A DNA stretch of 64,000 nt, taken from the NCBI GenBank assembly GCA_003001975.1, contig PVUG01000002.1, forward strand, positions 1-64,000, written 5' to 3'. Position numbers and translations under genes: made by a program. Shown here one piece after another: positions 15,021-33,936 of the stretch; the stretch's first letter is position 1, and every line of letters begins with the position of its first letter. The DNA is from Martelella mediterranea (lineage in GTDB: Bacteria; Pseudomonadota; Alphaproteobacteria; Rhizobiales; Rhizobiaceae). The notes under the pieces are model-generated. The model made no database searches, was not told the origin of the DNA, and saw only the letters and a list, made by a program, of their open reading frames with translations.

Positions 15021-15049
15021 AAACTATGGAAAATCTTTCCATAGTTTTC
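15021..15049. terminator. Bidirectional terminator before the exopolysaccharide locus
   Basis: AAACTATGGAAA and TTTCCATAGTTT form a perfect 12-bp stem around ATC, giving a T-rich 3' end on either strand. It separates the small lipoprotein gene from the convergent export-protein gene ending at 15075. Confidence 0.65.
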
Positions 15050-15074
15050 TCTACTCAAACCAACACCCGAACCG

Positions 15075-16424
15075 TTAGTTCACTATGCCGTTGGCAGTCC
15101 CGAGGATCGAAATCGACGGCAGGACCTGGGAAATCAGGCGGTTCCAGTTGGTGACCGGCTGGCTTGCAACGAACACGATATCGTTCGGGCGCAGCTGGAG
15201 TTCCGTGGCCAGCAGCAGGTTTGCCGTATTCTGCGCATCAAGCGACCAGGCCGTGATCCCCATCGCACCGCTTGAAGTATCCCTATTCTTGCGCAGAACA
15301 TAAATCCGACGCGGATTTCCGGTAACCGGCTGAATGCCACCCTGCTCGAACATCGCATCGGCAAGTGATGCAGTGCGGTCGAACGGCAGCGGCCAGCGTC
15401 CCTGCGTCTTGACCTCGCCAAAGACATAAACATAGTCCCGATCGACCGCATCCATCTCCACACGCGTCTGGAAGATATCACGCTGTTCATCCAGAACGTC
15501 GCGCTGGAACTTGGCGAGATCGAGCTCCTGGCGCATATATCCTTCAGCCAGCTCGACAGAATATTCGGTATCGACGAAAACACGGTCGCCGTTTTGAAGC
15601 AGAACCTTTGGAATATCGTTCTTGGCAAACAGCTTGTTTGCCGAAATCTGATAGGTCTGTTCGTCACGATAAAGCCGCACAGTCGCGTAACTTGGATCGG
15701 CAGCGACCACACCGCCTGCCGCCGTAATGGCCTCATCCAGATAAAGCGGCGTCAGAGTAATCGGCTCGAGTTGCGGCTGTGCCACAGCCCCGCCAACGGC
15801 AACGCGCTGCGAATTGAAGTCGGTAATTTCCAGATTGAATGTCGGATCGATCTGGCTTTGAACGAGTTTCTGGAACAAGGCGGACTGGGCCTCCTCCAGC
15901 GTCATCCCACCGATCGAAACACGCCCCACGGTCGGGATCGCAATCGCGCCATCGTCCTGAACAGTGTAGCCCTGGCGCGCGTTCTGCGCAGCCAGAAGTC
16001 CATTGATCTCATTCAGCGCAGAATCGGCGTTCGGGGTCGCCAGAAGCACCACATCTCCGACACCGATCCTGTAGGCTTTCGGTTGCTGTACGGGCGGCAG
16101 TTTGGTTGGCACGGCACCGGGCCTGGCCTGCGGCTTGTAGGCCGAAATGCTCGGCACGGCCGAACTCTGGAGCGTCGCCGTCTGGTCAAAGACAGGCGGC
16201 AGGGAACGCGGCGTATACGGCGTCATCGCGTTTGCCATCATGACATTCTGGCTCGTTACCGGCACCACCTTGACCACCGAAGTTTCGCCGACGACCGGAC
16301 GCACTTCGGAAACATTATACAATGCACTGCATCCGGTCATCGTGACCGCGGCAAGGATGAGGGTGATGAAACGCAATTGAAATACTCCGAATTGCTGCGA
16401 CTTGCCCCGAAAGTTAAAGCTCAA
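15075..16424 (-). CDS. Outer-membrane polysaccharide export lipoprotein (Wza/OPX family)
   Basis: A 449-residue protein with a lipoprotein signal (FITLILAAVTMTGC, lipobox TMTGC). A Poly_export domain follows at about residues 115-200 (YRIGVGDVVLLATP..VQDDGAIAIPTVGRVSIGGMTLEEAQ) and then SLBB/ligand-binding repeats (VAVGGAVAQPQLEPITLT; VYVFGEVKTQGRWPLP..SLADAMFEQGG). OPX proteins form the outer-membrane exit channel for capsule or exopolysaccharide, working with a chain-length/co-polymerase protein such as the one at 19938-21485. It is one of two OPX genes in the locus. A TTG 51 bases downstream of the chosen ATG has a better-placed CGGAG and is an alternative start. Confidence 0.88.
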   Translation of the reverse strand: MSFNFRGKSQQFGVFQLRFITLILAAVTMTGCSALYNVSEVRPVVGETSVVKVVPVTSQNVMMANAMTPYTPRSLPPVFDQTATLQSSAVPSISAYKPQARPGAVPTKLPPVQQPKAYRIGVGDVVLLATPNADSALNEINGLLAAQNARQGYTVQDDGAIAIPTVGRVSIGGMTLEEAQSALFQKLVQSQIDPTFNLEITDFNSQRVAVGGAVAQPQLEPITLTPLYLDEAITAAGGVVAADPSYATVRLYRDEQTYQISANKLFAKNDIPKVLLQNGDRVFVDTEYSVELAEGYMRQELDLAKFQRDVLDEQRDIFQTRVEMDAVDRDYVYVFGEVKTQGRWPLPFDRTASLADAMFEQGGIQPVTGNPRRIYVLRKNRDTSSGAMGITAWSLDAQNTANLLLATELQLRPNDIVFVASQPVTNWNRLISQVLPSISILGTANGIVN

Positions 16425-16615
16425 AACATATCACCCCGCTGGAGACAAGCAGATCGCCCGGCAAGAATACACAAAATACTCATAAACACATAAACTGAAA
16501 TTGACCCTGCCCCTGACTGAAAACACGCGGGGCCGAATAACATCATTATCTTTTTCTGCCGCAACCAGTCGCCGACATCGCGCTGCCCTGGAAATACGGA
16601 ACATTTTAGCCTCCC

Positions 16616-18268
16616 TTAATACGCAAATCTCAACGTGAGTCCATAGCGCGGGTCGTCCTGCGCAAGCATTGTGCCGACTCCGTGAAGACCTGTTGCATTT
16701 GTGGCATAGACATCCGCACTGAACGGCGTGCCGTTGAGGTTATAGCGCGCACCAGCCGACCAGATCGTGTCGCCGTCATCGGAAACGGCAGTGACCTCGC
16801 CCAGCAATTCGAGATCGCGGAACGGGCGCACGGAAAGACCACCGCCGACAGCCCACAAACGCTCGGAGTCGTAAGCGGCGAATTTCGATTCCAGCGTCAC
16901 ACTTGCCTTCTCCGAGAAGGCAAGACTTGCCGGAAGAGCGCCGTAGAGAATACCCGTTGTCGGCTTTTTGAAATCACGTCCGGCGAGGACCTGAGCGGAC
17001 AGAGAGAACAGATCGCCATATTTCTGGTCCATCAGGCGGAGCTTGCCGCCAAACATATAGGACCATTCATCGTTCCACACGCTCTTGGCCTTGCCGGCAG
17101 CGCCTCCAGAAGGATATTGCGAAAAAATAGCGTCAAGCTGGAGATCCTGATCCGGACTGAAGGCGAGATGGATATCGCGAAAATCGCGGTCTCCGATGCC
17201 CGCCTCAACCAGAAAACGCCCCGGCGTCAGCGTATCAGCACTTTGCAGTGTAATACCGCCAATCTGCTGGCGAAGCTCCAGGTCCGTGACAGGGCTCAGC
17301 ATATCAACCCGGTAACTGTCGAAATAGACATCGCGCGTCGCCGTGCCGACAAACGGCGTGTAGCTCAGGCGGACACCATAGGCGATATCATCCGATTCCG
17401 GAGGAAAGGCGATGATGCTGGTTGCCGGCGTCATCCCCCATCCATTGGTCGCGAAAAGGTCCACTGCGGCCTTTGGCGTGACGGCAAGCTTGACGCCCGC
17501 CATCCAGACCGGTTTCGTCTCAAGTCCACCACTGCTCGACAGGGTATTGCCGTCGGTAGCGTAGGGCAGCATCACCGTTGCATAGGACTGCAGCCCGGTA
17601 ACCGGCTGCCAGGTCAGACCGGCGCCGAGATAAGGCACGGTGCCGAAATAGGGTTGGCCGTTGATACTGTCCGGCAGGAAGGAAACACCCGGCGTCACAT
17701 GCAAACGCAATGAATCCGTCACGGTGAGGCTGATCGGCAGTTGCAGGCTGCCGGCAAGATTCAACGTTCCGTCTCCGTCATTCTCATAGAGGTTTCCGGA
17801 GAGGAAAACGCCCTCAAGTGACCCGAAAGCCGCCATGGAGAGCCCGTAACTGTCGAGCAGGCTGTATTTGACGCCGCCGCCGCCAGCCATAAAAGTAAGG
17901 TTAGCATCACACAGGGCAGTGCCGCACAATGGCGGGTCGTCGAACACATGACCGAAAGCACTCACCTGAAAGCGATCGGTAATCGCCCAGTCTGCCCGTC
18001 CTTCGTAAACCTGCGTACCGGTCGAGTTACCGCCCAGTGTCTGATCCGAACCGAATTGCAGATAAACGGCCCCTTTGGGCAGAAGATATCCGGTTTCGAA
18101 ACTCGAATAGTTGGTCGCCATCATTTCGATCGGCGTCTGATCGAGAAACAGCGCACCGGGCCCTTCAAGCACCTGCGCCTCGGCAGACCTCGTGCCTGCC
18201 GTCACAAAAGTGCTGCTCCAAACAGCAGTAAGTAAAACGAAACCGGACAGGTTCGATATTCTGGGCAT
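16616..18268 (-). CDS. Predicted outer-membrane beta-barrel protein of the exopolysaccharide locus
   Basis: About 550 residues with a Sec signal (MPRISNLSGFVLLTAVWSS, cleavage after SAEA) and a mature part full of alternating amphipathic strands rich in Gly, Tyr and Ser (for example LQSYATVMLPYATDG, WSAGARYNLNGTPFSADVY), ending in LTLRFAY with a C-terminal aromatic residue, the mark of a Bam-inserted barrel. I do not recognise the family. Its place between an OPX gene and the polymerase gene suggests a role in secretion or surface attachment of the polysaccharide. The start at 18268 is favoured by GGGAAG upstream; 18289 and 18331 are possible. Confidence 0.72.
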   Translation of the reverse strand: MPRISNLSGFVLLTAVWSSTFVTAGTRSAEAQVLEGPGALFLDQTPIEMMATNYSSFETGYLLPKGAVYLQFGSDQTLGGNSTGTQVYEGRADWAITDRFQVSAFGHVFDDPPLCGTALCDANLTFMAGGGGVKYSLLDSYGLSMAAFGSLEGVFLSGNLYENDGDGTLNLAGSLQLPISLTVTDSLRLHVTPGVSFLPDSINGQPYFGTVPYLGAGLTWQPVTGLQSYATVMLPYATDGNTLSSSGGLETKPVWMAGVKLAVTPKAAVDLFATNGWGMTPATSIIAFPPESDDIAYGVRLSYTPFVGTATRDVYFDSYRVDMLSPVTDLELRQQIGGITLQSADTLTPGRFLVEAGIGDRDFRDIHLAFSPDQDLQLDAIFSQYPSGGAAGKAKSVWNDEWSYMFGGKLRLMDQKYGDLFSLSAQVLAGRDFKKPTTGILYGALPASLAFSEKASVTLESKFAAYDSERLWAVGGGLSVRPFRDLELLGEVTAVSDDGDTIWSAGARYNLNGTPFSADVYATNATGLHGVGTMLAQDDPRYGLTLRFAY

Positions 18269-18661
18269 AAACTGCCACTTCCCGATCATGAAATAAACTA
18301 AAGAACCGGCGAGACGATAGCCTATTAACAACTCCTAAACAAGCGAACGGACCGGGTTTGCGGACGTTCTGTCTGCTCGGTTAAACTCATAGTAGAAGAG
18401 CGGCTTGCTAACGATCGGATAACCTTCCGTAACAAGCGTTCCCCACACTATATCAGCATCCGGTCCAAGTATTTTTCCACACCCCGACCTCCTGCGACAT
18501 ATACGCAGGGCAGGTATCGGCGTGCGCGGCCAACCGAGCGTATGTATCATTTTTGCAATCTGTAAACCATAAACTCAAAACCACCCGAAAACGCAACCAG
18601 ACCGCGCGCTATGTGTATTTCTGCGGAGCGGTCCGGCGCGAAAACAGGCAGTATAGGGGCT
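18269..18661. other. Intergenic region inside the exopolysaccharide locus
   Basis: About 390 bases. It must contain the promoter of the barrel-protein gene (leftward) and the end of the polymerase transcript. GATAGCCTATT near 18315-18325 is weakly like the dyads found elsewhere in this locus. GACCGC at 18599 and GCGGTC at 18629 can pair. The 71-residue open frame at 18335-18550 has no ribosome binding site and is not supported. Confidence 0.4.
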
Positions 18662-19936
18662 TCAGGCGCGCGCCTGACCCCGCATCTCGCGTGCATGAAT
18701 GCCGAGCATCATCAGCGCCGGCCACATGAGATAAGCTTCGATCTCGATATTCTCGCCGAAGCTCAGGACAATCATCACGAACACGACCGAAAGCGGCAGC
18801 CGCCCGCGCGGATGACGAACGCAGTCGACGAGCACGATGAAGGTCTGCGCCAGAAGCGGTATCAGCATGGCCAGAAAACCGGTCAGACCCTTTACGAACA
18901 GTAGACCATACCAGGTATGGTGGGAGCCGATCGGCATGTATTCCACCAGATGCGGCCCCGGCTGCACGGTGCCATGGCCGAACCAGTAGGCCTCCGACCA
19001 GCGCTCATAGGCAATGCGCTGCAACGCCTCGCGGACACGGGTGCTGTCGGCGCGGGCATTCTTGAAGGCATAGATGCCGCCCTGGATCATGGTGAACACC
19101 GCGCCGCCGAAAATCGCCATCAGTGTCGCAAGTGCAGCCGCCATCCGCCAGGCATAGACCTTCGCCACCAGCGGCAGCATCCGCGGACCGACCGTGCAGA
19201 CCACAACGCCGACAAGGCTCATGCGCGACTTGGTGAGCACGATCATGGCAAGGCCCGCGACGATGCCGCAGGTTTTCCAGAAAGGTTGTTTTTCTTCCAG
19301 CGCAAAAGCGACCATGACAATGCCGAGCAGACCGGCAAAGGGCGACCACGGCGCATAAAACTGCCAGCGCGGCGTCCAAGTCGACGGGTCGAGCGTGTAA
19401 AAATAGACCGAGAAATATTCCGGCCCCGGCCCGCCGACCGCCTTGAGCGGTGAAACGAAAATCCGCTCAGGCAGACCGATATACGGTGCGGCAAACATCA
19501 CCGGCAGCAGGATCAGCGTCCACAGGCCGATAACACATTGGCCGCGCACCAGCACTTCGCGCCGCACCTGAAGAACAGCACCGGCCAGCGGGAACAGCGC
19601 CAGCAGTGCCCAGCCCTTGGCCCAGCCGATACTCGACTTGATGGTCTGCTTGAGGCCAAGCCCCCATTGCAGATGACCGCCCCAAAGGGCGATCAACATG
19701 ACCAGCATGCCAGCAATCCACAACCAGACGATAAACGGCACCGGGCCTGCCGGCCTCAGCGATGGCCTGAGCGCCGGCCCGAAATAAAGCGCGATCACGG
19801 CAAGCGCGAACAGCAACCACCCCAGGACCGGCCCGACCACGTAGAGCGCGCCGAAGGCGTAGAACAGCCAGGTGAAGACCAGCGTCTTGTAGACGATGGC
19901 CTCCGGGAGGTTTTCGGGCCGCAATGAAAGGCTCAT
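18662..19936 (-). CDS. O-antigen polymerase/ligase-like membrane protein (Wzy candidate)
   Basis: A 424-residue protein with about ten hydrophobic segments and a long extracytoplasmic loop in the second half (residues about 280-350, FKNARADSTRVREALQRIAYERW..GSHHTWYGLLFVKG), the layout of Wzy_C/O-antigen ligase-type proteins; the H-x-x-Y-G/L motif after the loop is common in them. It would polymerise repeat units at the periplasmic face of the inner membrane. ATG at 19936 lies one base after the stop of the chain-length gene (TGAGATG), so the two are coupled. The open frame reaches 20173 but that part is a shadow. Confidence 0.8.
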   Translation of the reverse strand: MSLSLRPENLPEAIVYKTLVFTWLFYAFGALYVVGPVLGWLLFALAVIALYFGPALRPSLRPAGPVPFIVWLWIAGMLVMLIALWGGHLQWGLGLKQTIKSSIGWAKGWALLALFPLAGAVLQVRREVLVRGQCVIGLWTLILLPVMFAAPYIGLPERIFVSPLKAVGGPGPEYFSVYFYTLDPSTWTPRWQFYAPWSPFAGLLGIVMVAFALEEKQPFWKTCGIVAGLAMIVLTKSRMSLVGVVVCTVGPRMLPLVAKVYAWRMAAALATLMAIFGGAVFTMIQGGIYAFKNARADSTRVREALQRIAYERWSEAYWFGHGTVQPGPHLVEYMPIGSHHTWYGLLFVKGLTGFLAMLIPLLAQTFIVLVDCVRHPRGRLPLSVVFVMIVLSFGENIEIEAYLMWPALMMLGIHAREMRGQARA

Positions 19937-19937
19937 C

Positions 19938-21485
19938 TCACTTGCCTTCGGTAAAGAGCCTGACGGCCCGGCCAAGGATCGGCTGGCGGATCCATGCAAG
20001 AAGCAGGCTGAACAGAGCAAATGCACTGCCCGCAACGCCGCCGGCAATCGCGATCTTGATGTTCGGCGAGGTCGGCTGATACTCAATCGACGGGCTACTG
20101 ACGACCTGCACCATCGGATAGGACGCAAAGATATCCGACTTTGCCGTATTGATGCGGGCGAGCGCTGAAGCAAACACGGCCTCGGCCACCTTGTATTCGC
20201 GCTTCAGGGCATCAAGCCGCGCAGCAGAGGCTGACAGTGCTCGCACACGCGCCTCGCCACGTTTGAGCGTTGCCCGCATGGTGAATATTTCCGCGGAGAG
20301 ACCACGCGCCTCGGCGGACAATGTAACCAGGCTGGACAAAAGCCCCGCCCGCTGGCCATCGGCCAATGCATCGACTTCACCGGCAAGCTCCAGTGTATCG
20401 AACCCCGCCAGAATGACACCCCGGCCGGAAAGCTGATCACGCAATCCGCTGACACGATTGTTCGCGCCAACGACTTTCGGATGTTTCGGACCGAAATTAA
20501 CGGTCAGCTTGGCCAGGGCCGCATTGTCACGGGCCAGATTATCGGCAAGCGTAACATATTGCGGATCCGCGCGCAGCTTGAGGATGATTGCCGCGATTTC
20601 CGGCGTGGTTTCCAGAGTCCGGCTGAGTGTCGCGATCCGCTGATCGATCTGGTCGAACCGGGCCTCGGCGGCCGCGATTTCCAGCTGCAGGTCCTCATTA
20701 TCGGCAATAATCGCGTCATACTGTTCGTTGGAGTTCAGACCGCTTTCATGCTGCAGGTCGGCAATCGCCTTGCGGGCGTCCTCGACCTTTTCCTGATAGG
20801 CATCGATCGCATTGACGACCGAGCTTTCGCGACGAACGATCTCATCATTGCGCAGCGTGTCCAGTTCGAACAGAAAGGCATCGAGCAGCGCCTTGTTGCG
20901 GGCGCGGGCCTGTTCCGGCGAACTGCCCTTGATGGCGACCTGAATGAAGCTGGTCTGGTCGAGCAGCTTGATCCGCGGCTTGCCGAATGCCGCTGGATCA
21001 TTGCCCAGTGCATCGGCCGCACGCTCAAGGACCTGCGGCGATGACAGCAGGCTTTGATAGGTGACGGTCGGGCTCAGCGTCGAGCTGGAATAGGCCGAGT
21101 TGGCCGACGAGGACGCCTGGCCGATATCGGAAAGGTTGATGGACGTCGAGGCGCCAGCGCCCGGCAGGATCAGGGCCATATCCGATGAATAGGTGAGCGG
21201 CGCGTAGCGGACGTAGCTGATGACGGGCGCCCAGATGGCGGCCAGCATGATTGCCCCTAGCAGCACATAGCGCGGCAGACGGCCGGAATCATCCAGCTTG
21301 CCGCCGCTGGCGACACGCCAGAGGCTGAGCCTGCCACCGCGGCTGAGGTGCAGAAGACGCGGAACGGACAGGAAACCGCGGACAACCGCCTTCACGCCCC
21401 GAAAACCCCAGACAAAGGGCGAGAGCATGCGCGACATACGGCCTGCGGACTGCGAATTCTCTTTAGAGCTGCTGGTCTTCATCAA
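19938..21485 (-). CDS. Polysaccharide co-polymerase / chain-length protein (Wzz/GumC class, no kinase domain)
   Basis: A 515-residue inner-membrane protein. Transmembrane helices lie near residues 73-92 and 470-495, enclosing a large periplasmic coiled-coil region (for example ALLDAFLFELDTLRNDEIVRRE, EDLQLEIAAAEARFDQIDQRI). The chain-length motif region after it contains KREYKVAEAVFASALARI and the proline-rich segment PSIEYQPTSPNIK before helix 2. There is no cytoplasmic tyrosine-kinase domain, unlike ExoP, and no separate kinase gene in the locus. It sets chain length and connects with OPX channels. It is coupled to the polymerase gene. A GGATAGG dyad lies about 100 bases upstream. Confidence 0.87.
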   Translation of the reverse strand: MMKTSSSKENSQSAGRMSRMLSPFVWGFRGVKAVVRGFLSVPRLLHLSRGGRLSLWRVASGGKLDDSGRLPRYVLLGAIMLAAIWAPVISYVRYAPLTYSSDMALILPGAGASTSINLSDIGQASSSANSAYSSSTLSPTVTYQSLLSSPQVLERAADALGNDPAAFGKPRIKLLDQTSFIQVAIKGSSPEQARARNKALLDAFLFELDTLRNDEIVRRESSVVNAIDAYQEKVEDARKAIADLQHESGLNSNEQYDAIIADNEDLQLEIAAAEARFDQIDQRIATLSRTLETTPEIAAIILKLRADPQYVTLADNLARDNAALAKLTVNFGPKHPKVVGANNRVSGLRDQLSGRGVILAGFDTLELAGEVDALADGQRAGLLSSLVTLSAEARGLSAEIFTMRATLKRGEARVRALSASAARLDALKREYKVAEAVFASALARINTAKSDIFASYPMVQVVSSPSIEYQPTSPNIKIAIAGGVAGSAFALFSLLLAWIRQPILGRAVRLFTEGK

Positions 21486-21582
21486 ACGGTCCCCCGGTTC
21501 GAGTTCGCGCTTTTAATAAAGACTTCCCTGTGTTGCGTGCCGGCACGATGGCACTAACCGCGCGCCCTTTCGCGTTCATCGC

Positions 21583-21600
21583 TACCCTTTGGGATAGGGT
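21583..21600. promoter_or_regulatory. EPS-locus dyad, copy A
   Basis: TACCCTTTGGGATAGGGT, between the response-regulator gene and the chain-length operon. It shares the GGATAGG core and the opposing CC half with four other intergenic sites in this locus. Confidence 0.5.
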
Positions 21601-22214
21601 CAGAACAGACCGGCATTCTTGGCGATCATCGCCGCCATGGTGCGGTTGCGCGCATCCAGCTTGCGGCAAAGCGTCTTGACGTGCAGTTTGACGGTCACTT
21701 CCTGGAGATCGAGCGTGCGCGCGATTTCCTTGTTGGAATGGCCTTCGACAAGCCCTTTCAGAACCTCCATCTCCCGCCGGGTCAGTTTTTCCTCCAGCGG
21801 ATGGGTCGTCTTCTCTTCCTTTTCCGTCATGAACTGCACCGGCGCATATTGCTCGCCGGCGGCCATGAAGCGCACCGCATGGATGAGCGACTTTGCCGGA
21901 AGGCTCTTCGGCAGAAATCCGGCCGCACCGGACGCCAGCGCCTCTTCCGCCACATCGCGCGAAGCGGTGCCCGAAAGGATGGCGACAGGGCTGCCGAAAT
22001 TCAGGTCCCTGGCTTTCGCAAGTCCCTCCAGACCATTCATCCCCGGCATCGCGTAGTCGAGCAGCACAAGATCGAACGGACCTTCCTTGTTCATCAGGTC
22101 GGCCGCGCCGTCAAAGTCGGCCGCCACGGAAATGCGCAATCCCGGCTCGTTCGACAGGAAGGCAGATATGGTGTCGCGCACCAGTTCGTGGTCGTCCGCT
22201 ATCAATATCTTCAT
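21600..22214 (-). CDS. LuxR/NarL-type two-component response regulator
   Basis: A 204-residue regulator: receiver domain at residues 1-120 with the acidic pair Asp7-Asp8, phospho-acceptor Asp53 (VLLDYAMPGMNG) and conserved Lys in FLPKSLP; a LuxR-type helix-turn-helix at about 140-200 (LTRREMEVLKGLVEGHSNKEIARTL). No kinase is adjacent, but the hybrid kinase at 24514-27123 ends in an HPt domain that could phosphorylate it. It sits in the middle of the exopolysaccharide genes, flanked by GGATAGG dyads, and is the natural candidate to bind them; this is inference. Confidence 0.92.
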   Translation of the reverse strand: MKILIADDHELVRDTISAFLSNEPGLRISVAADFDGAADLMNKEGPFDLVLLDYAMPGMNGLEGLAKARDLNFGSPVAILSGTASRDVAEEALASGAAGFLPKSLPAKSLIHAVRFMAAGEQYAPVQFMTEKEEKTTHPLEEKLTRREMEVLKGLVEGHSNKEIARTLDLQEVTVKLHVKTLCRKLDARNRTMAAMIAKNAGLF

Positions 22215-22300
22215 GAGCTTCCCCTTCTCATGACCTCTGCCTCAAAGTTCACCCATAACTTAAAAAGGTATGATCTGTCACCGTCACCCGGCATCGATAT

Positions 22301-22317
22301 AGCCTAAGGGATAGGCT
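22301..22317. promoter_or_regulatory. EPS-locus dyad, copy B
   Basis: AGCCTA-AGGGA-TAGGCT, a perfect 6+5+6 inverted repeat about 90 bases upstream of the response-regulator gene. Confidence 0.55.
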
Positions 22318-22331
22318 GGTTCGCGTGAATA

Positions 22332-22348
22332 TGCCCTTTGGATAGGTG
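22332..22348. promoter_or_regulatory. EPS-locus dyad, copy C
   Basis: TGCCCTTTGGATAGGTG, 31 bases after copy B (three helical turns) and about 145 bases before the fusion transferase gene. Confidence 0.5.
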
Positions 22349-22491
22349 TGCCATCCGAAAGCAGCAGACAACGTTGCGGGCGCGCAGTCTCCTATGCTTC
22401 CAGGCGTAAAACATCACCTTACTCGATAAGGCGCAGGCCCCGCGCTTCCGACATCTTCTCCCCAACAGCAACACGCATGATGGAGAGGCAG

Positions 22492-23847
22492 ATGGCCGCT
22501 TTCAAAACAGTTTCGCTCTTCGGACTTCCGATTGTTAGCGCTACCCAGCAGGAGGCGGTCAGCGGCCTGCTCGAGGCGCCGCAGGAAAAGCGCACCGCCG
22601 CTTTCCTGAACGCCCATTGCATGAATACCCATAAGGACGATGCATCTTATCGCTGGGCCGTCAGCAAGGCGGATTACCTGTTGCCCGATGGTTCCGGCAT
22701 GAAGCTCGCAGCCAAGCTGCAGAAAAAGGGTTTCGAGGCCAATCTCAACGGCACCGACCTTTTCGTGCCGCTGTGTCGGGAAGCTGCACGGCTTGGCCGT
22801 TCAATCTACTTTTTCGGCAGTCAGAATGGTGTGGCGGATGCTGCGGCCAAGCGTGCCGGCGAACTTGCGCCCGGCCTGAAGATTGCCGGCACCCGCCATG
22901 GCTATTTCACCCGTGACGACGAAGCCGGCATCATCGACGCCATCAACCGTTCGGGCGCCGATATCGTGCTTGTCGCGCTTGGCGTGCCGATGCAGGACGT
23001 GTGGATTGCACGCAACCGCCACAAGCTCAATGCCGGCATGGTCATGGGCGTCGGCGCTCAGTTCGATTTCTGGTCGGGCCGGGTCACCCGTGCGCCTCTG
23101 ATCTTCCGCAAGGCGGGATGCGAGTGGGTCTGGCGGCTGATGATGGAACCGAAGCGGATGGCCAAACGCTACCTCGTCGGCAATTTCCGTTTCGTTTTCA
23201 ATGCCTGGCGTGAGGCCCGCACGGTACGTGCCGGCGCGACGGCTGCTGCAAATGTTCGCGGCAAGCGTCTGCTCGACATTGCCGTTGCCTCATCGGCACT
23301 TTTGATGCTGTCGCCGCTGATGGCCAGCACTGCGCTTGCCGTGGCAGCCACCTCGCGGGGGCCCGTGTTCTTTCGTCAAACCCGTGTCGGCGAAAACGGC
23401 CAGACATTCTCCATGCTGAAGTTCCGCTCGATGTACCGCGATGCGGAGGCCCGCCGCGCAGCATTGCTGGAAACCAGTGACCGCGAAGGCATCTGCTTCA
23501 AGTCGCGCAAGGACCCGCGCGTCACGCCTATCGGCCGGATTATGCGCAAGCTTTCGATCGACGAACTGCCGCAGCTGATCAACGTGCTGAAGGGCAATAT
23601 GTCGATTGTCGGCCCGCGCCCCGCGCTGCCGCAGGAAGTTGCCGCCTATGCACCGGAAGCCATGTCGCGGCTTGCCGCCAAGCCTGGCATCACCGGGCTC
23701 TGGCAGGTTTCCGGCCGCGCGGAAATCGGGTTCGAGCGGATGCTGCAGATGGACAATGCCTATATCCGCTCGCGCAGTATCGTCCTGGACCTGACCATTA
23801 TCGCGCTGACGGTGCGCGCGGTCTTCTCCGGGCGCGGCGCCTATTGA
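22492..23847 (+). CDS. Fusion of WecG/TagA/CpsF glycosyltransferase and polyprenyl-phosphate sugar transferase
   Basis: A 451-residue protein with two domains. Residues about 5-235 are GT26 (WecG/TagA): NAHCMNTHKDDASYRWAVSK, DYLLPDGSGMK, VGAQFDFWSGRVTRAP and EWVWRLMMEPKRMAKRY. Residues about 250-451 are an initiating sugar-phosphate transferase (ExoY/WbaP-like): a membrane segment, then GPVFFRQTRVG, KFRSMYRDAE, SIDELPQLINVLKGNMSIVGPRP and GITGLWQVSGR. The C-terminal half would load the first sugar-phosphate on undecaprenyl phosphate and the N-terminal half could add the next sugar. ATG 22492 is chosen for GGAG spacing; ATG 22477 is in frame upstream. Confidence 0.9.
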   Translation: MAAFKTVSLFGLPIVSATQQEAVSGLLEAPQEKRTAAFLNAHCMNTHKDDASYRWAVSKADYLLPDGSGMKLAAKLQKKGFEANLNGTDLFVPLCREAARLGRSIYFFGSQNGVADAAAKRAGELAPGLKIAGTRHGYFTRDDEAGIIDAINRSGADIVLVALGVPMQDVWIARNRHKLNAGMVMGVGAQFDFWSGRVTRAPLIFRKAGCEWVWRLMMEPKRMAKRYLVGNFRFVFNAWREARTVRAGATAAANVRGKRLLDIAVASSALLMLSPLMASTALAVAATSRGPVFFRQTRVGENGQTFSMLKFRSMYRDAEARRAALLETSDREGICFKSRKDPRVTPIGRIMRKLSIDELPQLINVLKGNMSIVGPRPALPQEVAAYAPEAMSRLAAKPGITGLWQVSGRAEIGFERMLQMDNAYIRSRSIVLDLTIIALTVRAVFSGRGAY

Positions 23848-23895
23848 AAACAAAAGGTCCGGCACGCGATCCAACGTCACGATCGCGTCGCCGAT

Positions 23896-23913
23896 CCTAT
23901 CCTTTCGTATAGC
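23896..23913 (-). promoter_or_regulatory. EPS-locus dyad, copy E
   Basis: On the minus strand GCTATACGAAAGGATAGG, 16 of 18 identical to copy D at 28685. It lies about 90 bases upstream of the gene starting at 24000. Confidence 0.5.
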
Positions 23914-23999
23914 GCAACCACGCTTGTTTGCTCATCAGCCCGCGCGGCTTGCGCGTAAAATCACAATATCAATTCCGCGAACCTGGAAGGTTGCTGATC

Positions 24000-24509
24000 A
24001 TGTTCCAACGACTTTTTCTGACCGCAGTGCTGACGCCCTTTCTTCTGATTGCGACCGCATCGGCCGAGGACCTGCCCGCACCGATGGGCCGCGTCATCCT
24101 GACGGTTTCAGGCAACATCGGCGTGACCAACGCCGACGGTGCGGCCGAATTCGATCTCGCCATGCTGGACGCCCTGCCCCAGACCCGTTTTACGACAGAG
24201 ACAATCTGGACCGACAGGGCGGCTGAATATTCCGGCGTGGAACTGTCGGCGCTGCTAGACGCCGTCGATGCCGATGGCACGCAACTGCTGATGACCGCGC
24301 TCAACGACTACGCAATTGATGTCCCGGCATCGGAGGCCGTTTCCGGCGGGCCAATCCTGGCGACGCGGGTTGACGGACACCCTCTTTCGGTGCGGGACAA
24401 AGGACCGGTCTGGGTGATCTATCCCTTTGATGACAAGCCGGCCTACAAGACAGAGATCACATATTCGCGTAGCATATGGCAGTTGAAGTCGATCGAAGTG
24501 GAAGACTGA
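24000..24509 (+). CDS. Exported protein with an oxidoreductase molybdopterin-binding-like fold
   Basis: A 169-residue protein with a Sec signal (MFQRLFLTAVLTPFLLIATA, cleavage after ASA). The mature part (GRVILTVSGNIGVTNADGAAEFDLAMLDALP..TIWTDRAAEYSGVELSALLDAV..LNDYAIDVPASE) resembles the short sulfite-oxidase-like molybdopterin-binding domain, but the Cys ligand of true sulfite oxidases is not visible, so it may bind another ligand. GGAAGG precedes the ATG. It ends five bases before the hybrid kinase and is surely cotranscribed, which suggests a periplasmic sensor partner for that kinase. Confidence 0.75.
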   Translation: MFQRLFLTAVLTPFLLIATASAEDLPAPMGRVILTVSGNIGVTNADGAAEFDLAMLDALPQTRFTTETIWTDRAAEYSGVELSALLDAVDADGTQLLMTALNDYAIDVPASEAVSGGPILATRVDGHPLSVRDKGPVWVIYPFDDKPAYKTEITYSRSIWQLKSIEVED

Positions 24510-24513
24510 TCTG

Positions 24514-27123
24514 ATGCAGGAACAGGCTGGCATAGCCGCCCGCGACCGCAAACCGAGAGACTGGAGAGGCGTTTACGTCGGCGCCGGTCTCTTTTTGCTG
24601 GCGGTGACGCTGGTGCTGAGCCTGCTTGCTGCACAGCTGATGCAGGAACTGGCGCGGCTGCGCTCGGCTTCGACCGACAATGTCCAGTGGCAGATGGCGC
24701 AGGTCCAGGTCGAACTGCTGGTGCTGGAAAGCGCCGTCGACGATGCGACCCGTAACCCGACGCCCGCAACACTTGACGAGCTTCGCCAGCGCTTCGATAT
24801 CTTCTACAGCCGGATCGACACGCTGCGGCGCGGATCGGTCTTCAGCAACGTCACGCGACAGGCGGGCGCCCGGCAGACCCTGAACCGGATCTCCGATACG
24901 CTCAACCGCGCCATCCCCCTCATTGACGGACCCGATGACGCGCTCGCCAGCGCCCTGCCGACGCTCAAGCCGAAACTGAATGCAATGCGTGACGACGTCC
25001 GCGAAATCGCGCTGACCGGCGTGCGCCTTCTGGCCGCGCAATCCGATCAGGACCGGCAGGCCTTTTCCAGTCTTCTGCTGCGCACCGGGCTGGTCGCAGC
25101 CGGTGTTATGGCGGCCATGTTTCTGGCGCTGTTCCTCGCCGTCTGGCAGTTCCGCATTGCACGGATACGAACCGAGGATCTGCAAACGCAGAATCTGCTT
25201 TACGAAAGCGCGATCAACGCCTCGCTGGATGCAATCATCGTCTCGGATGAAAAAGGGCGCATCCTCGATTTCAATCCCGCCGCCGAACAGCTTTTCGGCT
25301 ACAAGCGCGAACATGCGCTTGGCGTCACGGCGGAAAAGCTGATCATCCCGAAGGAGGACCTTCAGCTCCACCGAGACAGGCGCGTCGAGTTTCTCGACCG
25401 GTTCCGCGGCAGCGAAACCAACCTTTCCGGGCGGTTGGAAATCAACGCGATGCGCGCTGACGGCGAAGTCTTCCCGGCGGAAGTGTCGGTCGGCCTGATC
25501 CGGCGCGGCGAAAGACGCATCATCGTGACCTATATGCGCGACATTTCCGAACGCAAACGCGCCCAGGACAATCTGACCCAGGCCCGCGACGATGCCGTGG
25601 CAACGGCAAAGGCGAAATCCGACTTTCTTGCCGTCATGAGCCACGAGATGCGCACCCCGCTCAACGGGGTCATGGGCCTGCTGGACATGCTGAACGAAAC
25701 CCGGCTGACCCGCAAACAGCGTGATTATGTCGAAACGGCCATCGCATCCGGCGAAATCCTGCAAAGCCATATCGACGATGTTCTCAACATCACCCGCATT
25801 GAAGCAGGCGTTACCCGGCTCAATCCGGTTCACTTCGAAGTTCTTCCGCTGATGACGGAACTGAAGAAAATGAACGATCCGGCAGCGCAAAGACGCCGAA
25901 ACTCTATAGAGATAAGGACTGCGGAAGAAGCAGCGTTTTTCGATCAGGACCGCCACGCCCTGCGTCAGGTGTTGATCAATCTCGTCGGAAACGCCGTGAA
26001 GTTCACCGAAAACGGTACGATCCGGATCAGCGCTCTCCCGTATGACAAAGAGGGCTGGGTCGAGTTTTCCGTCAGCGACACCGGCATCGGGATCAGTGAA
26101 GCGGATGTTTCACGCATTTTCGATGACTTCGTGATGCTGGACCCTTCCTATAAACGGACGGCGCCCGGCTCGGGTCTCGGCCTTGGAATTTCGCGCCGGC
26201 TTGTCGAACTGATGGGCGGCGAAATCGGCGTTGAAAGCGCGCCCGGTCAGGGCAGCCGTTTCTATCTGCGCCTGCCGCCGCTTGCGGTGTCGGAACAGCG
26301 ACCGGTGGAGGTCGAAAGGACCGAAAGCGCGCCTGTACCGCTCGAACAGGCGGGACTTTCCGTCCTGCTTGTCGAAGACAATGAGACGAACCGTTTCGTG
26401 GCGCGTGAAATGCTGAAGAAGCACGGTTGCCGGATCGTGGAGGCCCATGACGGCATCGAAGGTGTCGACAAGGCCGCAGCCGAGCGCTTCGACGTGATTT
26501 TCATGGATGTCAGCATGCCGCGCCTCGACGGGATCGGCGCCACCCGTGCCATCCGTGAAGGCAACGGTCTGTCGCGCAATGTGCCGATATTCGGCCTGAC
26601 CGCCCATGCCTTGCCGGATGAGCGCCTGAAGCTCGAAGACGCAGGCATGGAAGACTGCATCGTCAAGCCGCTTCGAAGCGCCAAGGTGCGGGAGGTGATC
26701 GGCATGCTGATGCGCCGGCGCGAGGCTGCCGACAATGCATCGCCCGATGACGATGAGGTATCGGATGATTTCAACCTGATCGATCATGAAACGCTGGCGG
26801 ACCTGACCGAGGCGCTGCCGCCCGAACTGTTTCAGCGCCAGCTTGAACGGTTCAAGACGGAACTGGCTGAATCGGAGTCAAGGTTCTGCGGCGATCCCGA
26901 GCAGAACACCGACCTCGAAGACCTGGCCGCCTGCGCCCACAAGATGGCGGGTTCTGCCGCCGTTTTCGGCGCAATTGCCCTGCGGGCCACATTGCTGGAT
27001 GTGGAATCGGCGGCAAAGCACGGCGCGCGCGAACAAATTGCCCCGCTCTGCACCGCCGCGCGTGAAACAGCTGAAAGAACGCTGAAAGCCCTGTCGGAAC
27101 TGATACCAAGAGTCAATGATTAG
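24514..27123 (+). CDS. Hybrid sensor histidine kinase (PAS-HisKA-HATPase-REC-HPt)
   Basis: An 869-residue inner-membrane kinase. Helices lie near residues 20-43 and 189-212 with a periplasmic helical region between. Then come a PAS domain (about 228-349), HisKA with His377 in MSHEMRTPLNG, HATPase (about 480-586; NLVGNAVKF, GSGLGLGISRRLVELMGG), a receiver (about 616-736) with Asp665 in FMDVSMPRLDG, and a C-terminal HPt with His809 in ACAHKMAGSAAVFG. This is a complete His-Asp-His relay that needs an external receiver, most simply the LuxR-type regulator at 21600-22214. The last six residues (IPRVND) and the stop are encoded by the terminal repeat of the element at 27103. Confidence 0.93.
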   Translation: MQEQAGIAARDRKPRDWRGVYVGAGLFLLAVTLVLSLLAAQLMQELARLRSASTDNVQWQMAQVQVELLVLESAVDDATRNPTPATLDELRQRFDIFYSRIDTLRRGSVFSNVTRQAGARQTLNRISDTLNRAIPLIDGPDDALASALPTLKPKLNAMRDDVREIALTGVRLLAAQSDQDRQAFSSLLLRTGLVAAGVMAAMFLALFLAVWQFRIARIRTEDLQTQNLLYESAINASLDAIIVSDEKGRILDFNPAAEQLFGYKREHALGVTAEKLIIPKEDLQLHRDRRVEFLDRFRGSETNLSGRLEINAMRADGEVFPAEVSVGLIRRGERRIIVTYMRDISERKRAQDNLTQARDDAVATAKAKSDFLAVMSHEMRTPLNGVMGLLDMLNETRLTRKQRDYVETAIASGEILQSHIDDVLNITRIEAGVTRLNPVHFEVLPLMTELKKMNDPAAQRRRNSIEIRTAEEAAFFDQDRHALRQVLINLVGNAVKFTENGTIRISALPYDKEGWVEFSVSDTGIGISEADVSRIFDDFVMLDPSYKRTAPGSGLGLGISRRLVELMGGEIGVESAPGQGSRFYLRLPPLAVSEQRPVEVERTESAPVPLEQAGLSVLLVEDNETNRFVAREMLKKHGCRIVEAHDGIEGVDKAAAERFDVIFMDVSMPRLDGIGATRAIREGNGLSRNVPIFGLTAHALPDERLKLEDAGMEDCIVKPLRSAKVREVIGMLMRRREAADNASPDDDEVSDDFNLIDHETLADLTEALPPELFQRQLERFKTELAESESRFCGDPEQNTDLEDLAACAHKMAGSAAVFGAIALRATLLDVESAAKHGAREQIAPLCTAARETAERTLKALSELIPRVND

Positions 27124-27369
27124 GACTCATATGATGCGCGCTGGAATGGTCGTCCGAGTAGGAAAATACCGCAGAGCGATGCCGGAGCATCGCGCGAGGA
27201 TTTTGACGCCCTCGGTGGCCATTCCAGCCGCACCCTACGGGCCGGGCGCTTTTGAAAGCCCGCGTTGTTGAAAATCCTCGCCGTAGCTATGGCTACGACT
27301 GCGGTTTTCGCCTAGCCGGCTTTCAAAAGCGCTCCGGTCATATGGGTCCTAATCATTGACTCTTGGTAT
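27103..27369. repeat. Palindromic mobile-element-like repeat, copy 1 (MITE-like)
   Basis: 267 bp bounded by terminal inverted repeats that begin ATACCAAGAGTCAATG and agree at all but one of about 31 positions. The interior has two hairpin modules: GCTGGAATGG (27138-27147) with CCATTCCAGC, and a perfect 15-bp arm GCGCTTTTGAAAGCC with GGCTTTCAAAAGCGC, each with smaller nested pairs. No transposase frame is present. Copy 2 lies at 63338-63606 in opposite orientation. No clear target duplication was found. The left repeat supplies the end of the kinase gene. Confidence 0.85.
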
Positions 27370-27384
27370 GACAGGCTGAAGCGC

Positions 27385-28617
27385 TCAGATGATCACGCCG
27401 AGCGCGCCGATAATCCCCAGCTTGGTGGCAAGGTCGGTAATGTTGATCACCGAGGAATCATAGCAGGCCAGTGCATCCCCCGGCATCAGATAGGGATCGA
27501 AATTGTCACGATCCCCGCGTCGCAGGAGTTCTTCGAGATTGCGTTCGATCACGATCGACTGGCCGGTGATGGGATTACGGGTAAACAGCACCGCCGAGCG
27601 ATTGGAATTCGTCAGTCGCGTGCCGCCAACGCAGTTGAGGCTGAAGACGGCCTGCAGAAAGCGCGTCCCGTAGCGCAGTTCGACCGTATCCTTGGAAATC
27701 GCGGCCTGGGAATTGGATGTGGCAGGCACCGCGAGATTGGACATGAACACCTTGACCCCCGGCGGTGAAACCGCCGACGGCGCCACCAGCTCTTCCTGGA
27801 AGCAGTGGCGGCTTGGAATTTCGACCTGATCGCCCTCCAGCAGAACAGGATCGGGGTAGGCATGCCCGGTAATCACAGGGCGCATGTCATAAACTTTCTT
27901 GTGTCCGCCGCGCCAGACCGAGACCCGCGAAAGGTCGGCATCCGGGCGCACGCCGCCGGCCGATTGCAGGGCGCGCGCCAGGCGCCGCGCGCTGGTCCGC
28001 CCGCCGGCCGTTTCCTGCCGAAGCCGGTCCAGCGATGTTGCGGCAACCGAACCGATCGTCACCGATCCCGGCTCGAACACGGCGCCGGCCACGAAGACAC
28101 GCGCCGGTGCAAAGTCCATCACGCGGATCGAGACCAGCGGCACAGTGTTGTAAAGCCCCTCGTCAATCAGGGTCCGGCGCACGGATTCCTCGATGGAATC
28201 GACAGACCGCCCCTGGGCGCGGACCGGCGGCACATGCATCAGCCGCAACATGCCGTCCTGCGACACTTCGTATTTGCCTGAAATCACATCGTCGTCGGTA
28301 ATCGAGATTTCGATCAGATCGCCCGGCGACAGGATATCGATATCGGGTGGCACCATCCGGCTGCCGGGCGGCCCGAGCTTCTGGTCGGGCGCACAGCGCT
28401 GGGCATTCATCAAAACGGAGGATTTGCGCAGACGTTCGGCCTCGTCATCGGATGTCGTCGCCCGATACTGAGCCTGATAGCTTTCGCCTTGCTTGACGTT
28501 TTCGCTGTTTTCAATCGGCTCGAGCGTGGCACACCCTTGCGCAAAGGCAAGAAGCGACACGAGCGCGACGCGGCAGCAAGCCGTTTTCAGTCGGTTTTCC
28601 AAACGCTTTTGACCCAT
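27385..28617 (-). CDS. Second outer-membrane polysaccharide export lipoprotein (Wza/OPX family)
   Basis: A 410-residue protein with a lipoprotein signal (LVSLLAFAQGC, lipobox AQGC). The Poly_export domain (DIDILSPGDLIEISITDDDV..VSQDGMLRLMHVPPVRAQGRS) is followed by SLBB-like segments (VFVAGAVFEPGSVTIG; LARALQSAGGVRPDADLSRVSVWRGG) and a further SLBB-like part near the C-terminus. It would form an outer-membrane polysaccharide channel like the protein at 15075-16424, to which it is only distantly similar. The start at 28617 (MGQKRLE) gives a normal signal; an upstream in-frame ATG at 28665 does not. Divergent from the flippase gene; copy D of the dyad lies between them. Confidence 0.87.
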   Translation of the reverse strand: MGQKRLENRLKTACCRVALVSLLAFAQGCATLEPIENSENVKQGESYQAQYRATTSDDEAERLRKSSVLMNAQRCAPDQKLGPPGSRMVPPDIDILSPGDLIEISITDDDVISGKYEVSQDGMLRLMHVPPVRAQGRSVDSIEESVRRTLIDEGLYNTVPLVSIRVMDFAPARVFVAGAVFEPGSVTIGSVAATSLDRLRQETAGGRTSARRLARALQSAGGVRPDADLSRVSVWRGGHKKVYDMRPVITGHAYPDPVLLEGDQVEIPSRHCFQEELVAPSAVSPPGVKVFMSNLAVPATSNSQAAISKDTVELRYGTRFLQAVFSLNCVGGTRLTNSNRSAVLFTRNPITGQSIVIERNLEELLRRGDRDNFDPYLMPGDALACYDSSVINITDLATKLGIIGALGVII

Positions 28618-28684
28618 ACTGCAATGCGGCCTTTTCCGCCGGCCGCTGACACACCCAATAATCACACGGCTCTACCGCCTGTCG

Positions 28685-28702
28685 CCTATACCAAAGGATA
28701 GG
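28685..28702 (+). promoter_or_regulatory. EPS-locus dyad, copy D
   Basis: CCTATACCAAAGGATAGG, with CCTAT and ATAGG as inverted half-sites, between the divergent export-protein and flippase genes. 16 of 18 positions match copy E. Confidence 0.55.
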
Positions 28703-28825
28703 AAACAGAGCCGAATGTGCGTTCCGATGTCCTTCGGCACCCCCAAAGACCGCCCTCCTTTCACTTATAAACCTAACACAACGAAACCCGACGTCCACCG
28801 CTTGAAACACAAGGCCGATACCAGG

Positions 28826-30103
28826 ATGAACATGCTCAGACAGAAAATTGCTGACGCTGCTTCTTCGCCGCTTCTGCGCGGCGCTTCGGCCTATCTCGCG
28901 TCGGAGGCTGCCGCGAAAGCCTCCCGGCTCGCGGTCGTCGTCGCGATGGCCCGCTTCCTCTCCCCCGTGGAACTCGGCATCGCGGCGGCGGCCATGGCCG
29001 GCTCGGAAATCCTCAAATCGCTCGCCGAAAACGGCGTAGGCCAGCGCATCATCATCGCCGGCGACAACGAGCTTGACGCCGTCTGCAACCGCGCCCGCCA
29101 GATCTTCTGGGTCTGGTGCACGGGGCTTACCGTTCTGCAGATCGCAGTCGGCGCCGGTGTCTGGCTTGCCGGTGGCAGCATCATGACCTTCGCCCTGATC
29201 GCACTGCTCGGGCTAGAATACCTGTTCATGCCCGGCGGCCTTGTCCAGTGCGCCCTTGCCATGCGCAGGGGCATGCTGACCCGCACGGCCGCGGTCTCGG
29301 GCGCACAGAATGTCAGCGCCAACCTGCTGACCGTCGTTCTCGTCGCCATATTCCCGAGCCCGCTGGCCGTGGTTCTGCCGAAGCTGATTTCCGCACCGGT
29401 CTGGCTGATCGGCATGCGCCGCCTGGTCGCCTGGAAGCCCGCACCCGGCATCGCGCCGGCGCCGCTTTCCGCCTTCACCCGCTTCGGCGCGTCGGTGCTC
29501 GGTATCGAATTCGTGAAGGCCGTCAGGGCACAGGCCGACAAGCTGATCGTCGGCGCCGTCCTCGGAACGGAAGCGCTCGGCATCTATTTCTTTGCCTTCA
29601 ATGCCGGGGTCGGCATCTCGACCTCGCTGGCAACCGCGCTGTCGACGGTCCTGTTTCCCTATCTGTCGACGTCCGGCGATCGTATCGGTGCGCTCAAGCG
29701 CGGCCTGACGCTGGCCCTGACAGCGATAACAGTTGTCGCGCTGACCCAGAGCTTTGCCGCATCGTCTTATGTTTCGCTCGTCTTCGGTGCCAAATGGGCA
29801 TCGGTTGCCCCGCTGGTCGCCATTCTCTGCCTGACGGCGATCCCGAACATGCTGTGGTCGGTCACAGCCCAGTGGCTGCGCTCCGGTGGCCGTGCCGATC
29901 GTGAACTGGCCCTGTCGCTGGTTGCCGGAACCATCATCACGGCGACGGCTGTTGTCGCGGCCCCCTACGGCCTGACGACCCTGGCCTGGGCAACACTTGC
30001 CGCCGCGACGATCGTCCAGAGCGCCGTTTCGATACCGGTACTGTTTCGCGCTTTCGGTGTCCGCACCGTGGCCCATTGCAAACCCTCGTTTCAGGGAGCC
30101 TGA
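28826..30103 (+). CDS. Polysaccharide flippase (Wzx/oligosaccharide transporter)
   Basis: A 425-residue protein with about twelve hydrophobic helices, of the MOP/MVF superfamily. Family-like features are the N-terminal amphipathic start (GASAYLASEAAAKASRLAVVVAMARFLSPVELGIAA), FGASVLGIEFVKAVRAQADKLIVGAVLGTEALGIYFFA and LVFGAKWASVAPLVAILC. It would move lipid-linked repeat units across the inner membrane for polymerisation by the Wzy candidate. The start at 28826 is preferred because upstream sequence is hydrophilic; its ribosome binding site is weak. It begins a four-gene rightward operon with three glycosyltransferases. Confidence 0.87.
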   Translation: MNMLRQKIADAASSPLLRGASAYLASEAAAKASRLAVVVAMARFLSPVELGIAAAAMAGSEILKSLAENGVGQRIIIAGDNELDAVCNRARQIFWVWCTGLTVLQIAVGAGVWLAGGSIMTFALIALLGLEYLFMPGGLVQCALAMRRGMLTRTAAVSGAQNVSANLLTVVLVAIFPSPLAVVLPKLISAPVWLIGMRRLVAWKPAPGIAPAPLSAFTRFGASVLGIEFVKAVRAQADKLIVGAVLGTEALGIYFFAFNAGVGISTSLATALSTVLFPYLSTSGDRIGALKRGLTLALTAITVVALTQSFAASSYVSLVFGAKWASVAPLVAILCLTAIPNMLWSVTAQWLRSGGRADRELALSLVAGTIITATAVVAAPYGLTTLAWATLAAATIVQSAVSIPVLFRAFGVRTVAHCKPSFQGA

Positions 30104-33140: not shown

Positions 33141-33264
33141 CAGTATATAGACCTGCCTGAAACGCTTGCACGCAATCGGCAAAGACCGTCGGTCCGCAAG
33201 ACTTGCATTCCTGGTCGAGATGACGCTTTCTGCCGTCACTTGCCACAGCGGAAAGGTCAAAACC

Positions 33265-33933
33265 ATGAAAACCCGCAGCTTCGCCGTGATCGGTCTTGGA
33301 ACGTTCGGCAGCACCGTTGCCAGTGAACTTGCCCGTTTCGGCAATCCGGTGCTGGGCATCGACATCGACGGCCAATACGTGACAAGGCTGGCGGAAACGC
33401 TGACGGAAGCGGTGATTGCCGACGGCAAGGACGAAGTCGCGCTCAAGGAAGCAGGCGTCGCAGACTACGACGTCGCCATTGTCGCGATCGGGGAAGATCT
33501 GGAAGCGAATGTCCTGTGCACCATGAACGTCAAGATGCTCGGCGTCGAGACGATCTGGGTCAAGGCCCTCAACCGGACGCACCACCGCATCCTGACCAAG
33601 CTCGGCGCGGACCGCGTGATCCTGCCTGAACAGGAAATCGGACAGCACATTGCGCAGATGCTGCACAATCCGCTTGTTCGCGACTATGTCAGCCTCGGAA
33701 ACGGTTATCATGTGGTCGACTTCAAAGTGCCGGCCGAACTCGATGGCAAGATGGTCGGCAAGGCCGCCATTTTCGAGAAATATAACGTCAGGGCATTGGG
33801 GGCGATGCGGGACAATCAGTATCTGTCCTGTGACGATGGCGACCTGAGGCTGATGGAAGACGACAAGCTTCTCCTGCTCGGCAAGCGCGCGGACCTGCGC
33901 CATTTCGGAGACGATCTGCGGGACGGAAACTGA
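33265..33933 (+). CDS. Potassium uptake regulatory subunit (TrkA/KtrA family)
   Basis: A 222-residue cytoplasmic RCK protein: Rossmann motif VIGLGTFGSTVASEL, the acidic LGIDID at the end of strand 2, then the RCK_C domain from about residue 140. With a single RCK_N/RCK_C pair it is the KtrA type, not the duplicated E. coli TrkA. It forms a nucleotide-binding ring on the membrane subunit encoded three bases downstream. The start at 33265 is supported by GCGGAAAGG upstream. Confidence 0.92.
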   Translation: MKTRSFAVIGLGTFGSTVASELARFGNPVLGIDIDGQYVTRLAETLTEAVIADGKDEVALKEAGVADYDVAIVAIGEDLEANVLCTMNVKMLGVETIWVKALNRTHHRILTKLGADRVILPEQEIGQHIAQMLHNPLVRDYVSLGNGYHVVDFKVPAELDGKMVGKAAIFEKYNVRALGAMRDNQYLSCDDGDLRLMEDDKLLLLGKRADLRHFGDDLRDGN

Positions 33934-33936
33934 GGC

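Follow-up and report, generated by a model that had tools for sequence, protein, structure and literature searches.

A 16-bp dyad upstream of exopolysaccharide genes in Martelella and its relatives accompanies the gene of a NarL-type response regulator

The window analysed here is the whole stretch of 64,000 nucleotides at the start of contig PVUG01000002.1 of Martelella mediterranea, and it contains a locus of exopolysaccharide (EPS) genes. The conserved element of this locus is the 16-bp dyad CTATCC-N4-GGATAG, which is located upstream of the EPS genes. A phosphorylated NarL-type response regulator (RR) encoded in the locus very probably binds this dyad and controls the EPS locus together with the genes of its own signalling relay. 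Comparison of the sequences assigns the dyad to the RR through relocation of the module, absence of the regulator, exchange of the sensor and the sites found on plasmids.

Results

The dyad in the EPS locus

The window genome comprises 4,632,897 b in 46 contigs and belongs to the genus Martelella (Rhizobiaceae). The same-genus genomes used for comparison include Martelella lutilitoris, radicis, alba and limonii. What was computed directly is where the sites lie, how they are conserved, that they depend on the RR gene, and to which families the genes belong. The first-pass annotation of this DNA had listed five GGATAGG sites, all of them intergenic, and these were confirmed at the places it gave, with shifts of one or two bases at most. 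They make up five of the ten GGATAGG heptamers in the 64-kb window:

21582..21597, site A, CTACCC-TTTG-GGATAG, one mismatch, following the RR stop codon and preceding the start of the chain-length (wzc/GumC-like) operon
22299..22314, site B, ATAGCC-TAAG-GGATAG, two mismatches, weak, in the divergent RR/transferase region
22331..22346, plus strand, site C, half-site GGATAGG (22340-22346) with a poor left arm, a spacer-3 variant, 31 bp from B
23897..23912, read on the minus strand, site D, CTATCC-TTTC-GTATAG, one mismatch, before the PruR-like/kinase operon
28686..28701, site E, CTATAC-CAAA-GGATAG, one mismatch, in the gap from which the export (wzaB) and flippase genes diverge

The consensus first given for these sites, TA-N-CC-N3/4-GGATAGG, had three matches in the genome, including one on contig C12 that lies outside the locus. 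The palindrome was preferred, and the conserved register CTATCC-N4-GGATAG replaces the earlier form. Site B had been described as a perfect AGCCTA-AGGGA-TAGGCT dyad; this 6-5-6 dyad is not kept in the five relatives aligned and was dropped as a conserved element. As copies of the dyad, B has two mismatches and C fails at up to two mismatches with spacer 4, but the half-sites and the 31-bp spacing of the pair are largely kept in the alignment. The right half-sites of B and C (window 22309-22346) are thus about three helical turns apart, a spacing that is kept in Martelella. We regard B and C, recognisable but degenerate elements, as putative low-affinity sites.

A scan of the whole genome had been named as a test that could refute the motif. 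In the 4.63-Mb genome of the window, CTATCC-N4-GGATAG was matched within one mismatch only at sites A, D and E, three places that all lie in the EPS locus. The backwards control pattern gave six places in the same genome. The count of three is therefore unremarkable; what chance does not explain is the clustering of all three in the gaps of a single 7-kb locus, together with their conservation in relatives. An alternative consensus, CTATNCNNAAGGATAG, recovered the same three places within one mismatch and 22 more at two, where its control gave 59. We propose that the set controlled by the dyad in this genome is small and purely local.

Conservation among related loci

Searching with the transferase gave relatives in 9 of 61 genomes, one of them the window genome, and 251 in named genomes, of which the best 80 were kept as loci. 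Tblastn with 14 window proteins sorted 82 non-duplicate loci into 26 with an RR of at least 55% identity, 52 without the RR, that of M. alba (RR elsewhere) and three on truncated contigs. The 26 loci and the window region form the RR-bearing set (492,783 b), and the 52 loci form the RR-less set (977,385 b), which includes some short contigs (down to 3,595 b, L088) where the RR may lie past the contig end. As a control, 59 permuted half-sites of the same letters were used.

In the RR-bearing set the dyad occurred 11 times exactly, 52 times within one mismatch and 75 times within two. The permuted half-sites gave means of 0.02, 0.58 and 10.9, and maxima of 1, 5 and 49, respectively. Within one mismatch, CTATCC was the first of all 4096 half-sites. 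The RR-less loci had no exact dyad, none within one mismatch and 27 within two, against a permutation mean of 23.8. Only spacer 4 was enriched; spacers 0-3 and 5-15 gave 0-2 sites each in the RR-bearing set and 0-4 in the RR-less loci.

The positions of the sites were compared with control regions, taken by script as about 350 bp before the estimated gene starts. For wzc, 13 (16) of 24 loci had an upstream site within one mismatch (in brackets, within two). Such a site was also found in the RR/transferase region of 12 (17) out of 27 loci, upstream of the PruR-like gene in 9 (12) out of 12 and in the export/flippase region of 15 (18) out of 19. The script placed 50 of the 52 one-mismatch sites inside these four regions. 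The remaining two, L031:5175 and L035:5181, are found some 90 bp upstream of wzc open reading frames (ORFs) whose start the script had misplaced, and all 52 precede genes of the EPS locus. The distance from the site to the start of the matched protein was roughly 70-310 bp. A lack of conservation near related EPS loci had been named as a second refuting outcome; the dyad is conserved there.

Seventy distinct sites, selected within one mismatch, were profiled. The two middle positions were A or T in 84% of the sites, and the flanks held at most 0.35 bits per column. A GG/CC signal 10-11 bp outside the dyad reached 0.21-0.35 bits, and related sequences may cause it.

These data bear on two other explanations of the dyad. 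As RNA, CTATCC-N4-GGATAG could form a 6-bp stem with a 4-base loop, and site A stands directly behind the RR stop codon, as a transcript hairpin or terminator might. Many sites, however, are located between divergently transcribed genes, and 41 of the 52 carry one mismatch, which breaks or weakens a pair. Only one clear Watson-Crick compensation was seen by eye (L057:12248) among the two-mismatch sites of the control regions. In addition, arm letters 1 and 6 are fixed at 99-100% in the 70 sites, a fixation that the selection within one mismatch favours. We consider an action as RNA very unlikely. A dispersed repeat or mobile element with no regulatory role would account for several copies within one locus, but little is shared beyond the 16 bp, the window genome has no further copies within one mismatch, and the positions of the sites relative to the genes are kept across orders; this explanation is hardly credible.

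The dyad accompanies the RR gene

The EPS locus of M. alba lacks the RR, the kinase and the PruR-like gene, and a cluster of three sites was found on another contig. The presence of the missing genes at this cluster was predicted before the region was read, and they were then found there (RR 82%, kinase 52%, PruR-like gene 55%), with the three sites all within one mismatch. The dyad was thus a scannable tag that led to the relocated M. alba module before that genome was searched with the RR protein. In G005 a second RR module (L137) has an exact site before the RR. The module of G001 consists of the RR, the PruR-like gene and the kinase, and one of the two places in this genome lies 124 bp before the RR; no transferase match was found in G001 at E ≤ 1e-60.

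In two loci the sensor genes beside the RR are different and the dyad is kept. There the place of PruR and kinase is taken by the following pair (Pfam), a natural sensor exchange beside the same RR:

L031:5799-9820, FIST N/C-domain protein and PAS hybrid kinase
L034:5723-9780, FIST N/C-domain protein and PAS hybrid kinase

The ORF layout of L035, L037 and L039 is similar to that of L031 and L034.

Plasmids that had not been used to define the motif were represented by 17 records, nine of which were read. Five records have an RR of at least 57% identity, and the four of these that were read (L148-L151) all have sites. They hold 13 sites within two mismatches, 12 of them intergenic, and the genes downstream are RR/transferase, wzc, flippase/export, PruR-like and one hypothetical gene. 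Five plasmid records with an RR of at most 55% had three sites within two mismatches, of which two fall within listed genes and the third (L155) within a gene annotated as hypothetical.

One of the plasmids, pDY25-D of Pacificitalea manganoxidans (L149), carries the RR, the PruR-like gene and the kinase at 4400-23644, and no EPS genes are annotated in its 24.6-kb stretch. A two-mismatch dyad precedes a hypothetical gene, which is followed by genes of NEW3-domain and very large proteins, and a CsgG-family gene is nearby. By its gene content L149 is possibly another surface-structure regulon.

The RR was absent from 5 of the 13 genus genomes at E ≤ 1e-70. These five (G002, G003, G006, G007 and G011) have 0, 4, 1, 1 and 0 places within one mismatch, and none of the places has A or T at both middle positions. 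The eight RR-bearing genomes have 2 to 8 places each. Since these totals overlap, the argument is the place of the sites and not their number.

Another DNA-binding protein, encoded elsewhere, might bind the dyad, and the RR would then merely be a neighbour of the polysaccharide locus. The binding by the RR is itself a prediction, and most of the 52 RR-less loci come from other lineages, so the contrast between the two sets is partly phylogenetic, in addition to the short contigs among them. Against a different binder, the dyad accompanies the RR module at places without polysaccharide genes, it stays when the kinase and the PruR-like gene are exchanged, and the few places in the RR-less genus genomes lack the A/T centre. 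We judge a different binder to be unlikely. The earlier proposal that the LuxR-type regulator of the locus binds the dyad is supported, as the dyad within one mismatch is restricted to the locus in the window genome, is conserved at related EPS loci and moves with the RR gene; the binding is predicted.

Exceptions to the pairing

A number of observations weigh against a strict pairing of dyad and RR. L032 has an RR of 66% identity and no site. The second RR of G012 (89%), an orphan copy between metabolic and transporter genes (L167:9420-10211), has no site and no kinase nearby. L142 and L143 (RR 58%) have two-mismatch sites only, and no site was found near the RRs at 44-55% in L144-L147 and L152-L156; in L144 and L145 (RR 52-53%) the kinase is present. 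Within Martelella the RR/transferase region is degenerate, and only the window, out of six, reaches two mismatches or fewer. Moreover, only 19 of the 38 places within one mismatch in the eight RR-bearing Martelella genomes lie at an EPS locus or RR module (G000 3/3, G010 3/4, G009 3/4, G004 3/5, G008 4/8, G012 1/6, G005 1/6, G001 1/2), and the rest are therefore background or a wider regulon. A scan of 385 genomes of the class for a correlation between RR and dyad added little and was set aside, as the sampling was too thin: exact dyads were found in 27 genomes, the RR (E ≤ 1e-50) in 8, both in 3, and the two adjacent only in G082.

Among the distant RRs, that of L141 (54%) does have an exact site. 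From these mixed outcomes it follows that most close relatives of the RR share the specificity, which fades outside them. A diverged dyad was sought in RR relatives at 52-66% identity and rejected; the gaps that were read gave half-sites or poor variants only. Among RRs with the dyad the stretch of the recognition helix, EVTVKLHVKTLCRK or EPTIKLHVKTLYRK, hardly varies. It also occurs in some RRs without the dyad, and therefore this stretch alone is no predictor of a site.

Extra members of the regulon were considered in L133, L136, L138 and G364 (L139, L140) and rejected, as they were single sites or came from a genome in which the RR was missing at the cut-off. At L136:6861 in G012, GTATCCGAAAGGATAG is located about 40 bp before a gene for a GGDEF protein (by eye). 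The window genome has no place within one mismatch outside the locus. The 2.6-Mb genome G364 has three exact dyads with A/T-only centres (L139:7784, L139:15026 and L140:7780), and this RR is absent from it at E ≤ 1e-50. One of these dyads sits between a LuxR-type regulator gene and a gene resembling YfiR (by eye).

Genes of the locus and the proposed relay

The gene families of the locus were assigned by Pfam at E ≤ 0.001:

21600..22214, minus strand, RR of the LuxR/NarL type, REC and GerE (Pfam; closest solved relative NarL), candidate dyad binder
24000..24509, plus strand, PruR-like protein, Oxidored_molyb (Pfam; PDB 7kos)
24514..27123, plus strand, hybrid histidine kinase, PAS-HisKA-HATPase-REC-Hpt, with WX7E near the N terminus, DTB type (Pfam; motif search)
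22480..23847, plus strand, fusion of WecG/TagA and bacterial sugar transferase (Pfam), candidate target
19938..21485, minus strand, chain-length (Wzc/GumC-like) gene, candidate target, named after the first-pass annotation and by eye, no Pfam match at the cut-off
18662-20173, O-antigen-ligase-like gene after the chain-length gene (Wzy_C below the Pfam cut-off)
27385..28665, minus strand, polysaccharide export protein, wzaB (Pfam), candidate target
28715..30103, plus strand, flippase (Pfam; orthologs in relatives), candidate target, followed by glycosyltransferase-like genes

The RR has an N-terminal receiver (PF00072, 8e-22) and a C-terminal GerE helix-turn-helix (HTH; PF00196, 2.5e-18), which is the NarL/FixJ architecture. 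The phosphoacceptor aspartate and the switch residues were read from the translation as D8, D53, S81 and K103. By sequence, the closest solved structure is NarL (1a04, E 1.7e-26).

For the PruR-like protein the start at 24000 was chosen, in an ORF that opens at 23928, and the N terminus resembles a signal peptide (by eye). In the PDB sequence comparison it matched 7kos_A at E 1.8e-35, and 7KOS is the PruR of A. tumefaciens (PMC13259868). The protein is taken to be a homolog of this PruR, with pterin binding predicted. Its gene is directly upstream of the kinase gene, and the kinase has HisKA/HATPase, PAS and REC as in PruR-DTB, where PAS and REC are optional, with an Hpt domain in addition to that definition. 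The WX7E of the kinase is WQMAQVQVE in the N-terminal part, where the first 219 residues matched no Pfam family. Some form of WX7E was matched in 24 of the 30 loci that have both genes, the form in L152 being doubtful, and none in L074, L090, L134, L142, L145 and L148. The kinase is accordingly classed as the putative pterin-binding partner of the PruR-DTB type, its DcpA-type character being taken from WX7E and the gene order.

Farther along the window, at 33166-39634, a TrkA/TrkH-like pair is followed by ORFs resembling genes of purine/allantoin breakdown (by eye).

Binding, phosphotransfer, a pterin signal and activation as the sign of control are inferences. The periplasmic PruR-like protein and its partner hybrid kinase (the PruR-DTB pair, 24000-27123) would sense a signal, in all probability either a pterin itself or the redox state of a pterin. 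A His-Asp-His-Asp relay in the order HisKA-REC-Hpt-RR would carry it to D53 of the RR; both the order and the pterin signal are deduced from the gene families. The phosphorylated RR dimer would then bind each 16-bp site in the manner of NarL, as two inverted heptamers around a 2-bp centre. Its targets would be the chain-length/ligase operon, the transferase, the flippase and the export gene, and also the relay genes themselves, which would be a feedback.

Activation is a guess, as the site-start distances of about 70-310 bp do not decide between activation and repression. The RR may instead bind the dyads and repress the EPS genes, or act with both signs, which is a variant of the proposed control and compatible with it. 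The divergent sites close to the gene of the RR itself are compatible with either sign, and NarL both activates and represses (PMC4549865). The data favour neither sign, and we consider repression or a dual sign a tentative option of lower probability.

A wider reading, to which we give an even chance, is that of a module with an exchangeable sensor, a PruR-DTB pterin reader in most lineages seen and a FIST, NosP-like reader in others. These would feed one conserved NarL-type RR with the private operator CTATCC-N4-GGATAG, driving EPS genes across Hyphomicrobiales and Rhodobacterales. If this reading holds, it would be the first transcriptional regulon for PruR-DTB signalling, in which extracellular pterins act on EPS and bypass cyclic di-GMP (c-di-GMP).

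Comparison with known systems

A NarL-type regulator with a set of operators in a linked gene cluster is a well-known arrangement. NarL of E. coli has the same REC and GerE architecture, and CTATCCN-NN-NGGATAG has the same 16-bp layout of inverted half-sites, which fits a predicted RR dimer on this palindrome. NarL prefers two inverted heptamers two bp apart (7-2-7), for example TACCCCTAAAGGGGTA (PMC4549865). Unlike NarL, where the half-site is TACCCC, the half-site here is CTATCC, the candidate targets are the EPS locus instead of nitrate respiration, and the partner is a PruR-linked hybrid kinase.

VpsT controls exopolysaccharide, and VpsT-type regulators carry the c-di-GMP motif W[FLM][TS]R. 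The RR shares the LuxR-type HTH with VpsT, which is among its PDB HTH matches. In contrast to VpsT, the RR keeps the phosphorylation residues, and W[FLM][TS]R, in this definition, was not seen in its translation by eye.

NosP of the NosP-NahK pair is a FIST sensor with a histidine kinase as partner. In L031 and L034 likewise, a FIST protein and a PAS hybrid kinase are encoded together beside this RR, a likeness in the FIST domains, whereas the partner in the window is PruR-like. NosP is also mentioned in PMC13259868.

The sensor is comparable to PruR-DcpA and PruR-DTB. In all of them the gene of a PruR homolog immediately precedes that of a membrane protein containing WX7E, and the cytoplasmic half of the kinase has the DTB configuration here. 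The arrangement of a PruR gene upstream of a kinase is named PruR-DTB in section 8 of PMC13259868, where such kinases are said to be broadly represented in Proteobacteria. The control by DcpA is described there through c-di-GMP; the passages on these systems name no PruR-DTB output, and the words 'response regulator' are absent from the main text. Unlike PruR-DcpA, the output proposed here is an RR with a set of operators. The first-pass annotation knew of no named motif of this form, and the palindrome strings were found in none of the open PMC papers searched. No published regulon for PruR-DTB was found in the open literature searched, mostly at the abstract level. What appears to be new is the operator itself, together with its pairing to this RR family and the connection with PruR-DTB and FIST sensors. 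The dyad supplies the PruR-DTB kinases with a candidate partner regulator, an operator and a directly testable list of targets.

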